This document shows, piece after piece, positions 9,423 to 51,623 of a stretch of 53,305 bases of DNA. A model generated the notes under the pieces. It made no database searches and had not been told where the DNA came from. It saw nothing but the letters and a program-made list of their open reading frames with translations. Every line of letters begins with the position of its first letter. Position 1 is the stretch's first letter. The position numbers were made by a program, and so were the translations under genes. Where the stretch lies: contig JAKEGK010000273.1 of NCBI GenBank assembly GCA_022627515.1, positions 1 through 53,305 of the forward strand, written 5' to 3'. The DNA is from Gammaproteobacteria bacterium. GTDB lineage: Bacteria; Pseudomonadota; Gammaproteobacteria; SZUA-152.

Positions 9423-11879
9423 TTAGTGGGTTCTGATCAAATTCTCCGCTTCATCTGAACTTTTTTGTTCGACAGCCACGGCTTCTTTTCCCTCGCTGCC
9501 TGGCAACGGTTTGGGCATTTTGGTCAGCGCCACTTCAAGCACTTCGTCAATCCAACGCACGGTACGGATATCCAGACGTTCTTTGATATTCTCAGGAATC
9601 TCCGCCAGATCCCGGCTGTTTTCCTTGGGTATCAAAACGGTTTTGATGCCTCCTCGATGCGCGGCGAGCAATTTTTCCTTCAAGCCGCCGATTGGCAATA
9701 CTTCGCCACGCAGCGTAATTTCACCTGTCATGGCAACATCGGAACGTACCGGGATCCCGGTCAGCACGGAAACGATCGCCGTGCACATGGCTATACCGGC
9801 GCTCGGTCCATCCTTGGGTACGGCGCCTTCCGGCACATGGATATGAATGTCATTTTTCTCGTAAAATTCCACGGCTTCGATTCCCAGCATTTTGGCGCGG
9901 CTGCGCACTACGGTCATCGCCGCCTGAACCGACTCTTTCATGACATCACCCAACTGACCGGTAATCACATGTTTGCCTTTGCCTGGCACGAGGACTGCTT
10001 CGATGGAAAGCAATTCGCCGCCGACTTCGGTCCATGCAAGACCGGTGACCTGTCCCAACTGGTCTTTCTCTTCTGCGCGGCCAAAGCGAAAGCGTTTCAC
10101 ACCCAGATATTCTTCCAGGTTTTCGCTGGTAATGGTGACAGGTTGCGCCTGCTTGCCGCTTTCTTTCAGCAGGATGTTCTTCACAACCTTACGGCAAATT
10201 TTTGAAATTTCACGCTCCAGATTCCGCACACCGGCTTCACGGGTGTAAAAACGGATGATATCCCGTATGCCCGATTCGCTGATCTCCAGCTCAGACTCGC
10301 TCAATCCGTTAGCCTTAATTTGTTTCTTGACCAGATAACGCTGGGCAATGTTGACCTTTTCATCTTCCGTATAGCCAGATATGCGAATCACTTCCATTCG
10401 GTCCAGCAGTGGCCCTGGTATGTTCATGGTATTGGCGGTCGCCACAAACATGACATCCGACAGGTCATAGTCGACTTCCAGATAATGGTCGTTGAACGTG
10501 TTGTTCTGTTCGGGATCCAATACTTCCAGTAATGCCGATGCCGGATCACCACGAAAGTCCATGGCCATCTTGTCAATTTCATCAAGCAGGAACAGTGGAT
10601 TACGCGTTCCGGCTTTTGTCAGGTTCTGAATTATCTTGCCTGGCATGGAGCCGATGTAAGTACGGCGGTGACCGCGGATCTCCGCTTCATCACGCACACC
10701 GCCCAACGACATGCGTATGAATTTGCGATTGGTCGCGCGCGCAACGGATTTACCCAGCGAGGTTTTACCTACGCCCGGCGGACCCACCAGGCACAGGATC
10801 GGACTCTTGGCTTTTTTGGCGCGTTGTTGCACCGCCAGATATTCAAGAATGCGTTCCTTCACTTTTTCCAGACCATAGTGGTCGGTTTCGAGTACTTCTT
10901 CCGCGGTAGCCAAGTCATTGCGCACCTTGCTGCGTTTTTTCCACGGCACGTTGACCAGCCAATCAATATAGTTGCGCACCACCGTCGCTTCCGCCGACAT
11001 GGGCGACATCATTTTGAGCTTGTTTAATTCGGATTCGGCTTTTTCTTTCGCCTCTTTGGACATACCCGCTTCTTCGATCTTGCGGGTGAGGTCATCCACT
11101 TCATTATGTCCTTCTTCCAGATCGCCCAGCTCTTTTTGAATGGCTTTCATCTGCTCATTCAAATAATATTCGCGCTGGCTTTTTTCCATTTGACGTTTCA
11201 CCCGCCCGCGGATGCGTTTCTCGACCTGCAACAAATCAATCTCGGCTTCCATTAATCCAATCAGGTGTTCCAGCCGTTCGCGCAAGCTGATGATCTCGAT
11301 AATCTTCTGTTTCTCTTCAATCTTTAATGACATATGCGCGGCGATAGTATCCGCCAGGCGGCCCGGCTCATCGATACTGGATAATGACGAAAGAATTTCG
11401 GGAGGAACTTTCTTGCTAAGTTTGACATACTGGTCAAATTGCGCCATCACGGAACGCATAAGCACTTCGGCTTCGCGCTCATCAAGCTTGGCGGAATCCG
11501 GTGATTCGACTTTGGTAATCTGGGCTTTGAAGTAATCGTCGGTGCCCATGAGATGCAGAATGCGCGCGCGTTCGCTGCCTTCAACCAGCACCTTGATGGT
11601 GCCATCAGGCAGCTTCAGCAATTGCAGAATATTGGCGATGGTGCCAATCTTGTAAAGATCTTCCGCTTCCGGCTCATCCTGCGATGCGTTTTTTTGCGCG
11701 GCCAGCAAAATTCGTTTGTTTTCCTCCATCGCCGCTTCCAGAGCAAGAATGGATTTTTCCCTGCCAACGAATAGTGGAATGACCATGTATGGGTACACTA
11801 CCACATCGCGCAACGGCAGTACCGGCATCACCTGAAGCTGGTCATTAACGATATCGGAAACCTTGTCTTCTTCAGACAT
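9423..11879 (-). CDS. lon: ATP-dependent protease La (Lon)
   Basis: Cytosolic ATP-dependent serine protease that degrades misfolded and selected regulatory proteins. The 818-residue chain has the N-terminal LON substrate domain ([13 protein letters not shown]), a coiled-coil middle, an AAA module with Walker A ([13 protein letters not shown]) and Walker B ([10 protein letters not shown]), and a C-terminal protease domain. The catalytic dyad is Ser693 (PKDGPSAG) and Lys736 ([11 protein letters not shown]), at the spacing of the E. coli pair 679/722. The ATG at 11879 is preceded by GAGAGG; an in-frame ATG ten codons earlier lacks such support. A heat-shock-like promoter lies about 200 bases upstream. 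Confidence 0.97.
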
Positions 11880-39732: not shown

Positions 39733-40109
39733 TTACAGGTTTTCCTATGCACTCCCGTGCTGTACTGACATATACTCATGCCTGATCCGGTTCATTGACA
39801 TCGCAAAAATTGCAATAGCTATGCCACTCACTGGCTGCTGATCTTTCTTTTCCGTTCAAACAGTTGGACCACGTTATGAAACAGACGCCAATTAATCGAC
39901 CCGCCACGATAGCTCGCAAAACGCATGAACCCTGAGTGATAAACATATGATCCCTCTTACTTTATCGGATTAGTGGGGTTATTCTAAAGCGGGTATTTGG
40001 TATTGTGAGAACTGGACTTAAGTACCGGCTGCGGTACAATCCGTCGCGTCGAAAATCGATCATCACGTATTTTTCAGACGTGGTGATCGCATTCCCAGGA
40101 GAAGTTTTA
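39733..40109. other. Divergent interval between fliM and the di-haem peroxidase
   Basis: 377 bases holding the sigma-54 promoter for fliMN on the left. On the right, upstream of the peroxidase, I see no strong -35/-10 pair; AGGAG for the peroxidase lies at its end. The open frame from 40005 lacks initiation signals. Confidence 0.5.
39811..39826 (-). promoter_or_regulatory. Sigma-54 promoter of fliMN
   Basis: On the minus strand TGGCATAGCTATTGCA has the invariant GG and GC at exact 10-base spacing and fits the consensus TGGCAYR-N4-TTGCW throughout. It lies 78 bases before the fliM ATG. Flagellar structural genes of polar flagellates are commonly controlled by RpoN with FleQ; the activator gene is not in the window. 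Confidence 0.8.
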
Positions 40110-46447: not shown

Positions 46448-48235
<1,788 letters not shown>

Positions 48236-48367: not shown

Positions 48368-48465
48368 AAAGTATGACTATGCATATGCGCCCAGCAATCT
48401 GTGGATCAGAAAAACCTGCTCATCTATATTAGGTGACTTCAACGATAACAATAAGGGACATATCA

Positions 48466-49011
48466 ATGACGACTCGCTTCTATATTAAAGCAATTAAAGC
48501 ACTACTCGTCTTTTGCGTTACAAGCGCCGCATATGGGGAACAATTTGGTATCGGTGTACAACTGAATACGGGCAACGCGATCTACTTGCCAGTCAAAATT
48601 ACGGATACTCTACGTATTGAACCCTATTTTGATGCCACCGAACAGGACATCCAGCAAAGCGGCCTCACCAGCGGCGCCGAGTCTTACTTGTTTGGCGCAG
48701 GTATCTTTAAGGCGCAAAGGAAGAGCGACAATCTGACCCTTTACTATGGCGTACGGCTTGCCTATGTGCGGCAGGAATTTTACTTCTCATCTTCCACAAG
48801 CGTGGGCAGCGACGAGCAGGACGGTTACCAGATTGAACCGGCTCTTGGTTTTGAATATTTTATTCTCGACAGTGTCTCAGTAGGCGGTGAAGCCGGCTAT
48901 TTCTACCAGAAACTGGAAGGTACGTCGGTAGATAGCTCTGGAACATATGACATGGAAAGGAAATTTACCGGCACGAATACCAACTTTTTGTTGCGCTATT
49001 ATTTTTATTAA
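48466..49011 (+). CDS. Putative outer-membrane beta-barrel protein
   Basis: A 181-residue exported protein of unknown function. A signal peptide (AIKALLVFCVTSAAYG) is followed by alternating aromatic/polar strands (LYYGVRLAYVRQEFYFSSS, YQIEPALGFEYFILDSVSVG, GGEAGYFYQKLEG) and the chain ends in a strand with terminal Tyr (NFLLRYYFY), the usual barrel-assembly signal. It resembles small OmpA/Opa-like eight-strand barrels. The ATG at 48466 has AAGGG upstream. It is followed by a 1.4-kb gene-poor stretch with RNA-like structures. Confidence 0.75.
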   Translation: MTTRFYIKAIKALLVFCVTSAAYGEQFGIGVQLNTGNAIYLPVKITDTLRIEPYFDATEQDIQQSGLTSGAESYLFGAGIFKAQRKSDNLTLYYGVRLAYVRQEFYFSSSTSVGSDEQDGYQIEPALGFEYFILDSVSVGGEAGYFYQKLEGTSVDSSGTYDMERKFTGTNTNFLLRYYFY

Positions 49012-49216
49012 TTCGGCTTTTCTTTGATTCAACCCGGCAGACTAAATAATAAATCGCGTCACAGGAGGCAAGTTTTCACTCAATTCATCGTGCTGGTATG
49101 GATTAAATTCCCCGCGCTCTGCCCGGCGGTACTGACAATCAGACAAGCATGATCCAACCGGACGCACGAATACTCTGTAAATGCAGACCAAGAGGATATC
49201 GATAAGGCATTTAGAT

Positions 49217-49673
49217 TTTTTACCTCACTGATGTTTTCGCGGCCAACGCACTGGCCGGTCAAACGCTTGGTGTTGACGACAACGGCTCCGGTGTTTTTCA
49301 AAAAAGCCCCTTGAGCGCGGACAAGGGATTAATCCTGTATATCAGTAACAGCAGTTGTGTTGGCAGTTACTGCATCGCCACCCATGAGCTTGTGATTGCC
49401 ACCGGAGAAATCAATGGCAAGGAACCCGCTAAACTCATACACTTTCGCCAAAGCAAAATTCGTGTGGACTGCGGTCCGCAACAATCGCTGATACTGATTC
49501 AGGAATAGCCGCAGGACATAATCTGGCTGTTACGTTGCCAATGCTGATTCACCCCGTCAAACTTACAAACACCCAATCATCGATAAGCAATCTACCGCTG
49601 GAAGCCGCCAAAGAATGGACGTATTTAGTCAATGATGACCAAAAGCCGGCGATCGATGGAAGACATCTGTGAT
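49217..49673 (+). pseudogene. Possible decayed secreted-protein gene
   Basis: A frame open from just after a stop at about 49213 to 49508 reads DVFAANALAGQTLGVDDNG and onward for about 95 codons. It resembles the end of a signal peptide plus mature sequence, but no start codon with a ribosome site is found. Coding-like sequence resumes in another frame (AAGHNLAVTLPMLIHPVKL, then EWTYLVNDDQKPAIDG) up to a stop near 49673. Two frames and no start suggest a degraded gene; I recognise no family. Confidence 0.3.
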
Positions 49674-49727
49674 TATCATTTAGGCAATTCATCGCTAAGC
49701 AGCTGTGTGCCCGGAGTTTATGTTTTT

Positions 49728-49825
49728 GTGGCACATCGAATGCAAAAAACACGATGTGGCCGAAAGTGCTTCTTTTGACCACCTCCTTCCTTATCAACGG
49801 GACACATGGTGTGTCCCGTTTTTTT
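49728..49825 (+). ncRNA. Candidate small RNA unit 1 (anti-Shine-Dalgarno motif plus terminator)
   Basis: A 7-bp hairpin (CACATCG 49732-49738 / CGATGTG 49752-49758) is followed by an unpaired pyrimidine-rich linker containing CACCTCCTT (49780-49788), identical to the anti-Shine-Dalgarno end of 16S rRNA. It closes with a perfect 9-bp terminator stem (49797-49805 / 49811-49819) and T7. No clear promoter is visible, so the 5' end is a guess. Confidence 0.4.
49797..49825 (+). terminator. Intrinsic terminator, unit 1
   Basis: ACGGGACAC / GTGTCCCGT, 5-base loop, followed by a run of seven T. No plus-strand protein gene immediately precedes it. Confidence 0.88.
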
Positions 49826-50033
49826 AATAGATTCATAAATATAAGAAGCCTGCCGGCATGACGATGGCACAGCATTAATATACCGCCTTGATCTTTTCTA
49901 CCTCCCATCCAAGGAAAGTTATAAACCGAATTCAGCAATTGGCCGTGCTTGTTTACATAGCGAACAAACCATCGTGTTACCCACTGACTTGGAAACTATA
50001 AACATTTTGTAATGGCACAAATAGTGCATTAAA

Positions 50034-50113
50034 GATTTTGTGACCAACCTATCACCCCCCCGATATTGGTCACACCTCCCCTTCAAAGGGGTGCGATAAG
50101 CACCCCTTTTTTT
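50034..50113 (+). ncRNA. Candidate small RNA unit 2 (two hairpins with C-rich loops)
   Basis: A perfect 9-bp stem TGTGACCAA / TTGGTCACA (50039-50047 and 50066-50074) with a C7-containing loop is followed by CACCTCCCCTTC and then a strong terminator. A possible promoter, TTGTAA, 17 bases, TAAAGA, ends at about 50035 and would start the RNA at the first hairpin. The predicted length is about 75-80 nt. Confidence 0.45.
50085..50113 (+). terminator. Intrinsic terminator, unit 2
   Basis: AAAGGGGTGC / GCACCCCTTT, 5-base loop, followed by T7 in total. The 5' arm could pair instead with the preceding CCCCTT, so two exclusive folds are possible. Confidence 0.9.
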
Positions 50114-50169
50114 ATTACTCCGGCGGCTAATTAATCCAGTCTGGCCGTAGCGATTCCCCGATTCGTGAT

Positions 50170-50319
50170 TGCGTTCACAGCAGCAGTGGCGATTTTGATT
50201 GATACTTTTATCGGGTTCGCAGCGAAATCTCTGACTGTCTCTCCCCAGGCTATCCTAATGCTGTGAACCGGTTATTGAAGCCGCATCTTCCCCCCTACCC
50301 AACGATGCGGCTTTTTTTT
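50170..50319 (+). ncRNA. Candidate small RNA unit 3 (long-range stem plus terminator)
   Basis: A perfect 10-bp pairing GTTCACAGCA (50173-50182) / TGCTGTGAAC (50259-50268) encloses about 76 bases containing CTCTCCCC. The terminator that follows has a loop with CCCCCC. No clear promoter is seen; it could alternatively be a leader segment of the roxA mRNA that attenuates transcription. Confidence 0.35.
50278..50319 (+). terminator. Intrinsic terminator, unit 3
   Basis: AAGCCGCATC / GATGCGGCTT with a 16-base C-rich loop, followed by eight T. It lies 117 bases before the roxA start. Confidence 0.9.
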
Positions 50320-50435
50320 GCCCGCTATTTTCCAATCCACGCTTTTCTTTCATTCATGCAGTGACGCTTTGCATAAACTCAGGTAAGTTAGCAGCAACAG
50401 GAAATGATTACTTAAAAAATCTTCAGGAAAAACCA

Positions 50436-51623
50436 GTGCCAGATCTTGATAAATACTCCGTATTGGGTGAACTCAGCGCGGCAGAATTCCTCGCCGGATA
50501 TTGGCAAAAAAAACCCTTGCTCGTTCGCCAGGCCATTCCCGGTTACAGCACGCCTGTATCACCCGATGAGCTGGCCGGACTGGCCTGCATGGACGATGTG
50601 GAATCCCGTATCGTGCTGGAAAAGGATGGTGCTTCGCCCTGGCAATTGCAACACGGCCCGTTCGATGAAGACGCATTCGGCGACCTCCCGTCAACTCACT
50701 GGACTCTGCTGGTTCAGGAGTGCAACAAACACGTGCCGCAATTGGCGCTGCTGCTGGATCAATTCAACTTTATTCCCAACTGGCGGGTGGATGATGTCAT
50801 GGTAAGTTATGCCGCGCCGCAGGGTTCGGTGGGCCCGCATGTCGATCAGTATGATGTATTCCTGTTGCAAGGCCTGGGAAAACGCCGCTGGCAAATCAAC
50901 ACCGGCAAAAACGCGCATTTGAATTTCCTGCCAGGCGCCGGATTGCGTATTCTGAAACAGTTTGAAAGCGAACAGGAGTGGATTCTGGAACCGGGTGACA
51001 TGCTGTATTTGCCGCCCGGGGTCGCGCATTACGGCGTGGCGCTCGATGACTGCATGACACTCTCCGTCGGTTTTCGCGCGCCCGGTCACGATGAACTGCT
51101 GACTCATTTTGGCGAAGATCAGTTTGCCGGTATCAGTGATCCGTTTCTGATTCCGCGTTATGAAGATCCCAGATTGATATTGACGGAAAACTGCGGCGAA
51201 ATTTCCGATGATGCGCTGAGGAACATCGTTACTATATTGCAGTCCTATACGGGTAACATTGAAAATGTCAAACGCTGGTTTGGCCGGTACATTACCGAGC
51301 CAAAAGCTGATAGCGATTTTGAACCACAGGCAATTGCCGCTAACGCCACTCAACTGCGCAATATGATATCCGCCCAGGAATACATATGCCGTTCGGAATA
51401 CGTCCGGTTTTCCTATATACAAAACGCGGATCAATCCGTTTATCTTTATGTGAACGGCAACGAATACCTGTTGCGAAACAGCGAACAATCATTTGCTAAA
51501 ACGATTTGCAGCCAGCGGCGTATTGATGCGGCGCTTATGTCAGCATTTCTTGACAATACCGCTTCGCGCCAACTGGTGCTCGATTTTTTTAACAACGGCT
51601 ATTTATATTTTGAGGAAGAATGA
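50436..51623 (+). CDS. roxA: Ribosomal oxygenase RoxA/YcfD-type (cupin, 2-oxoglutarate/Fe(II) hydroxylase)
   Basis: A 395-residue JmjC-type oxygenase; the E. coli homologue (373 residues) hydroxylates an arginine of ribosomal protein L16. The iron ligands are His135 and Asp137 (GPHVDQYDVFLLQ) and His198 (PPGVAHYGVAL), matching His125/Asp127/His187 of YcfD. The start is GTG at 50436, supported by AGGA seven bases upstream. The GTG at 50361 extends the frame without a ribosome site. Its stop overlaps the next gene in an ATGA. Proximity to purB and the rluE/mnmA ribosome- and tRNA-modification genes fits. Confidence 0.92.
   Translation: MPDLDKYSVLGELSAAEFLAGYWQKKPLLVRQAIPGYSTPVSPDELAGLACMDDVESRIVLEKDGASPWQLQHGPFDEDAFGDLPSTHWTLLVQECNKHVPQLALLLDQFNFIPNWRVDDVMVSYAAPQGSVGPHVDQYDVFLLQGLGKRRWQINTGKNAHLNFLPGAGLRILKQFESEQEWILEPGDMLYLPPGVAHYGVALDDCMTLSVGFRAPGHDELLTHFGEDQFAGISDPFLIPRYEDPRLILTENCGEISDDALRNIVTILQSYTGNIENVKRWFGRYITEPKADSDFEPQAIAANATQLRNMISAQEYICRSEYVRFSYIQNADQSVYLYVNGNEYLLRNSEQSFAKTICSQRRIDAALMSAFLDNTASRQLVLDFFNNGYLYFEEE

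Follow-up and report, generated by a model that had tools for sequence, protein, structure and literature searches.

The window analyzed here is the whole of a 53,305-nucleotide stretch of DNA from an uncultured gammaproteobacterium. On its plus strand, the gap between purB and roxA holds three candidate small RNA (sRNA) units, each with its own predicted promoter motif and intrinsic terminator (Table 1). In the relatives, purB likewise lies upstream of the units. The longest open reading frame (ORF) of roxA opens with the GTG listed in the table. Its homology to the relatives begins near residue 26-34, and the true start is probably the GTG at about 50436, which has AGGA on its 5' side. The distance from the end of unit 3 to this likely start is about 120 bases.

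Table 1. Genes and predicted elements of the purB-roxA region (positions in the window)
Feature	Position	Strand	Description
purB	46832..48235	+	ORF for adenylosuccinate lyase; upstream gene that stays linked to the cassette
Putative sigma-54 (-24/-12) promoter, unit 1	49729..49744	+	TGGCACATCGAATGCA; pattern match, with a comparable site at unit 1 of G008
Candidate sRNA unit 1	49754..49826	+	hairpin 49756-49782, CACCTCCTTCC stretch 49780-49790, terminator 1
Terminator 1	49796-49825	+	11-bp stem, T7
Putative sigma-54 (-24/-12) promoter, unit 2	50013..50028	+	TGGCACAAATAGTGCA, GG-N10-GC element
Candidate sRNA unit 2	50038..50114	+	hairpin 50039-50074 with CACCCCCCC loop, ACCTCCCC linker 50074-50081, terminator 2
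Terminator 2	50085-50113	+	10-bp stem, T7
CRP-like dyad, unit 3	50164..50179	+	CGTGATTGCGTTCACA; 9 of 10 consensus bases
-10-like hexamer, unit 3	50201..50206	+	GATACT, 30 bases from the dyad centre
Candidate sRNA unit 3	50213..50320	+	long stem 50214-50269 enclosing CTCTCCCC, terminator 3
Terminator 3	50277-50319	+	11-bp stem, 16-base loop with TTCCCCCC, T8
roxA	50361..51623	+	ribosomal protein hydroxylase; downstream gene, Pfam JmjC_2 and ROXA-like_wH

Our terminator scan of the 53 kb window recovered eight strong intrinsic terminators on the plus strand, three of them inside 550 bases. The standard scan lists terminators 1 and 2, and terminator 3 is absent from it because its loop exceeds the rule of that scan. 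A reading of the sequence alone, made before this analysis (hereafter the sequence-only reading), had reported three strong terminators on one strand of a gene-free stretch. All three are present, with no protein gene between them. No Pfam domain was found in the gap that holds the units, and the minus-strand ORF at 49549-49938, which overlaps the terminator region, has no Pfam match. ORFs of at least 8 amino acids were absent from units 1 and 3, and unit 2 contains a single one of 19 amino acids. Between purB and unit 1, positions 48433-49700 comprise a small ORF without a Pfam match, earlier called a barrel protein, and a gene-poor stretch. This part is probably a lineage-specific insertion, as most relatives lack such a separation of purB from the units.

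The features expected of sigma-54-dependent genes, namely a GG-N10-GC element shortly 5' of the predicted start and RpoN encoded in the same genome, were found for the candidate units 1 and 2. The taxonomic family was searched in 24 genomes of six genera, which equal the whole order in the collection, and rpoN was detected in all 24, including that of the window. At every unit-2 locus collected from the relatives, the sigma-54 element occupies the same place, just before the hairpin. For the pattern TGGCAYNNNNNNTGCW, 0.83 occurrences would be expected in the window, and five were counted. The matches at 9984 (inside lon), 23922 (in an apparently coding region) and 39811 were rejected as further units because they lie inside genes or before a fliM-like ORF. 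The last of these, TGGCATAGCTATTGCA on the minus strand (39811-39826), stands 5' of the fliM-like ORF and is plausibly the sigma-54 promoter of a flagellar operon. A further stretch of some 40 conserved bases, roughly CCGWCAAAWT...TAAC..AAAACCGTCA, was observed between the purB stop codon and the sigma-54 promoter of unit 2, about 100 bases 5' of the latter. It is common to genera g2 and g6 (L038-L053) and may be an enhancer site bound by a sigma-54 activator.

In the comparison with shuffled sequences, units 1, 2 and 3 had far more stable predicted folds, with z = -5.4, -9.1 and -4.9, respectively. The C-rich segments lie where the sequence-only reading had put them, but the hairpin that it assigned to unit 1 was wrong. 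The inverted repeat in question is largely the putative sigma-54 promoter, and the hairpin of the predicted transcript is the one at 49756-49782.

In the case of unit 3, the upstream region is of another type. No sigma-54 element was found 5' of this unit, and the only match to YGTGA-N6-TCACA in the whole window is its dyad CGTGATTGCGTTCACA, centred about 41.5 bases 5' of the predicted start. The genome of the window encodes a CRP orthologue with 64% identity to E. coli CRP, and it carries two Hfq genes. A CRP orthologue is present in most genomes of the family. A TGTGA-N6-TCACA site near the predicted position -41.5 in a genome with a CRP orthologue is what class II activation by CRP would require. 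At 13 of the 19 unit-3 loci (the window counted), the dyad in this place matches the consensus at 9 or more of its 10 bases. Where the dyad is intact in relatives, 29 or 30 bases separate its centre from the -10 hexamer. Genus g2 and genome G011 have a weak dyad or none; two g2 genomes have AGTGAAATGATTCACT. A scan of the window for sigma-70 consensus promoters found none, as would be expected of promoters that depend on sigma-54 or CRP. This split in promoter control between sigma-54 and a CRP-like site, which is missing from the sequence-only reading, is in our view the most informative feature of the locus.

The kinship of the units was studied with two covariance models built from sequences of the relatives. 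Model R2 was derived from the unit-2 sequences of genera g2 and g5, including the promoter, and model R1 represents unit 3 alone; the E-values of both models are rough. In the 4.4-Mb genome of the window, R2 matched unit 2 (45.7 bits, whole-genome E 1.1e-6) and unit 1 (34.7 bits, whole-genome E 3.4e-4, span 49729-49826) and nothing else. Therefore, unit 1 is best read, from its sequence, as a duplicate of unit 2. The best genome-wide E-values of the models in the relatives reach down to 1e-29. R1 also scored unit 2 in many genomes, including unit 2 of the window (31.1 bits, E 2.6e-6), and because of this units 2 and 3 probably share an ancestor, with the reservation that shared C-richness and the terminator may account for part of the match. 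R1 gave no score on unit 3 of the window itself, the stem of which is long and diverged. The earlier statement that the units share design rather than primary sequence does not hold, given that R2 from relatives of unit 2 matches units 2 and 1 and the unit-3 model also matches unit 2. A 25-base match of 96% in contig C251 of the same genome was considered as an extra copy and rejected, as it lies in an apparently coding region.

Among the family genomes, unit 2 is kept in 19 of 24 according to the covariance model, and R1 matches to unit 3 were found in 18 of 24, usually between purB and roxA. roxA itself was found in 19 of the genomes, and inspection of the DNA 5' of it revealed the order purB, unit 2, unit 3, roxA in most loci. 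Unit 1 is common to the window and one other genus, represented by G008.

The sequence-only reading had named a lack of stem conservation in relatives as evidence against an sRNA locus. The stems are conserved. In unit 3, 12 of 17 pairs are altered on both sides, and none of 500 shuffles was as good; pairing was found in 96% of cells, compared with 87% in shuffles, and was lost when the partner was slid by one to three columns. The stems of unit 2 were paired by hand and counted by script, because MAFFT misplaced the stem arms when all unit-2 sequences were aligned jointly. The nine-pair stem of this unit is 96% paired across 16 distinct stems, with six of nine positions changed on both sides. 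When the 3' arms were reassigned, a mean of 69% was paired, and the value of 96% was reached in none of 5000 trials. In the predicted folds, the C-rich loops and linkers are mostly unpaired, and they are conserved across genera. Unit 2 has CUCUCCCUCCCC or CCCCCC as its loop motif and ACUCUCCC as its linker motif; the corresponding motifs of unit 3 are CUCCUCCC (loop) and UCUCCUC (linker). The candidate units have what is generally expected of trans-encoded sRNAs (a promoter motif, a terminator, ORFs of at most 19 amino acids and covariation) and, as far as the predicted folds indicate, the conserved single-stranded C-rich motif that marks the C-rich anti-Shine-Dalgarno group.

Intergenic terminators are common and this gap includes a gene-poor stretch, so one could ask whether the three terminators simply insulate purB from roxA, with the C-richness as a by-product. 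Such chance punctuation is contradicted by the promoter motifs, by the covariation in the 5' hairpins and by the C-rich segments in loops and linkers, all conserved across genera, and we regard it as highly improbable.

The search at the class level covered 369 gammaproteobacterial genomes. R1 matched four loci adjoining purB outside the family of the window: two in f81 and one each in f101 and f43. The unit-3-like element of f43 lies between purB and roxA, and those of f81 and f101 follow purB with no roxA found nearby. One f81 locus (L099, 1510-1975) has three near-repeated C-rich, sRNA-like units 3' of purB. Two of these carry a CRP-like dyad and a -10 hexamer of their own, at identical spacing. 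The array looks like a recent local duplication, and L098 was noted as similar. Two further R1 matches, L102 and L104, are apparently spurious (a terminator downstream of a protein gene and a tRNA region). R2 found four loci in other families (L094-L097) that are not beside purB. Each combines a sigma-54 site with a C-rich hairpin region and a terminator, the sigma-54 part of the match being partly built in because R2 includes the promoter. These are possibly further members of the unit-2 type.

The position of the units in the purB-roxA gap, with unit 3 ending shortly before the likely roxA start, is also what one would see if they were cis-acting parts, i.e., a leader, attenuator or riboswitch of roxA or the 3' untranslated region of purB, and not free sRNAs. 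However, every unit has its own promoter motif and a strong terminator. Units 1 and 2 persist directly 3' of purB in G008, in which no roxA was found, and the elements of f81 and f101 are likewise without a nearby roxA. On this evidence, we consider a cis-acting role improbable. purB and roxA are directly adjacent in several gammaproteobacteria; therefore, the cassette appears to lie within an old gene pair and to remain with purB where roxA is missing.

The earlier proposal of a tandem sRNA locus with C-rich, anti-Shine-Dalgarno-like loops is thus supported by the linkage to purB, the compensatory changes, the separate promoter motifs and the terminators. From the sequence evidence, it is very probable that the locus comprises three sibling genes for trans-acting sRNAs, which would act as C-rich blockers of ribosome-binding sites, units 1 and 2 under sigma-54 and unit 3 under CRP. 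Each unit would give an RNA of about 75-110 nt that has a hairpin at its 5' end, another unpaired C-rich stretch besides that of the hairpin, and an intrinsic terminator. The hairpin loop or its flank would expose a CUCC(U)CCC-type motif complementary to the Shine-Dalgarno sequence GGAGG/GGGG. The RNAs would most likely pair with the G-rich ribosome-binding sites of several mRNAs, and the pairing would keep 30S subunits from binding and favour decay, probably with the help of Hfq. We infer this mechanism by analogy, because sX13, the alpha-r14 RNAs, CyaR and the Neisseria siblings, all of them studied by experiment, share the same working part. Units 1 and 2 would be transcribed by sigma-54 RNA polymerase under an enhancer-binding protein, and unit 3 by the housekeeping polymerase, activated by CRP about 41.5 bases upstream in class II geometry. 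With units 1 and 2 sigma-54-driven and unit 3 CRP-activated, two signals would converge through the cassette on a single type of translational repressor.

CrcZ is a sigma-54-driven sRNA with a decoy role. GlmY is also sigma-54-dependent and acts as a decoy (PMC4211561). With such precedents, and with several units that jointly could titrate a partner, the RNAs might instead resemble CrcZ, CsrB or GlmY and act as sponges for a protein or another RNA, without pairing to mRNAs. The conserved single-stranded parts are, however, C-rich and not GGA (CsrA) or A-rich (Hfq/Crc) repeats, and they are complementary to Shine-Dalgarno sequences. We find a sponge role unlikely and prefer the blocking of ribosome-binding sites. 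A more far-reaching reading is that the purB-linked family arose from duplicated siblings that were rewired into a sigma-54 activator arm and a cAMP-CRP arm, both acting through C-rich repressors with overlapping targets and forming an integrator of two global signals; for this reading, our judgment is evenly balanced. The signal of the sigma-54 arm would perhaps be nitrogen or another stress.

What is new is the sRNA family, together with the unusual way in which its tandem siblings differ in promoter type; its mode of action is of a known kind. In the Rfam search of the window and 15 loci of relatives (gathering score and relaxed E-value), only tRNAs were above the threshold, and the plasmid collection contained no match. 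No description of this locus was found in the openly accessible literature, to which the search was confined (subscription papers were outside its scope). The analysis adds a covariation-supported sRNA family that is absent from Rfam and spans several gammaproteobacterial families.

The nearest Rfam family is ErsA (Pseudomon-1, RF01719) of Pseudomonas. It also has a C-rich terminator loop and gave a weak full-model match to unit 3 of the window (23.4 bits, E 0.046, against a gathering cut-off of 50 bits), with no match at the 15 loci of relatives. In GlmY, Qrr, NrsZ and CrcZ, sRNA genes with -24/-12 promoters are driven by an enhancer-binding protein. The structures and loci of these RNAs are other than those of the units, GlmY and CrcZ are decoys, and none gave an Rfam match here. 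The enterobacterial CyaR (RyeE) resembles the proposed working of unit 3, being a CRP-dependent sRNA that pairs with the Shine-Dalgarno sequence (PMC11795201). Unlike the units, it does not stand in tandem with sigma-54 siblings, and no CyaR match was found by Rfam in the window or the 15 loci.

The sequence-only reading had likened the C-rich loops to those of the cuckoo and RsaE-type RNAs. This likeness stands as a functional one, without a match to any Rfam family. The alpha-r14 or cuckoo RNAs (NfeR1, CcsR) have hairpins with differing stems and an exposed CCUCCUCCC anti-Shine-Dalgarno motif; NfeR1 carries the identical motif in each of three hairpins and has a sigma-70 promoter (PMC10746234). 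They are alphaproteobacterial, unlike the units described here, which are gammaproteobacterial and gave no Rfam match. An identical CCUCCUCCC loop in each hairpin was not found in the units, in which similar motifs (CUCCUCCC) vary across units and genera.

sX13 shares with the units stem-loops with C-rich loops. These loops repress mRNAs that carry G-rich motifs close to the start, and both the loops and the motifs are needed; the gene is always beside polA, confined to Xanthomonadaceae and expressed constitutively (PMC3771888). The units differ in that they are linked to purB (the locus lies between purB and roxA and not beside polA), occur in twos or threes, and have predicted sigma-54 and CRP sites. 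The Neisseria RNAs NgncR_162/163 (NmsR) are adjacent siblings that occlude the ribosome-binding sites of metabolic mRNAs (PMC9973317). They have 78% mutual identity and three stem-loops, whereas the purB-roxA siblings are highly dissimilar in sequence and are of different promoter types. Adjacent siblings under predicted sigma-54 and CRP control offer a clear, testable case of how duplicated sRNAs share out signals among themselves and yet retain a single mode of action, and they support the view that C-rich sRNAs that plug Shine-Dalgarno sequences evolved repeatedly in bacteria.
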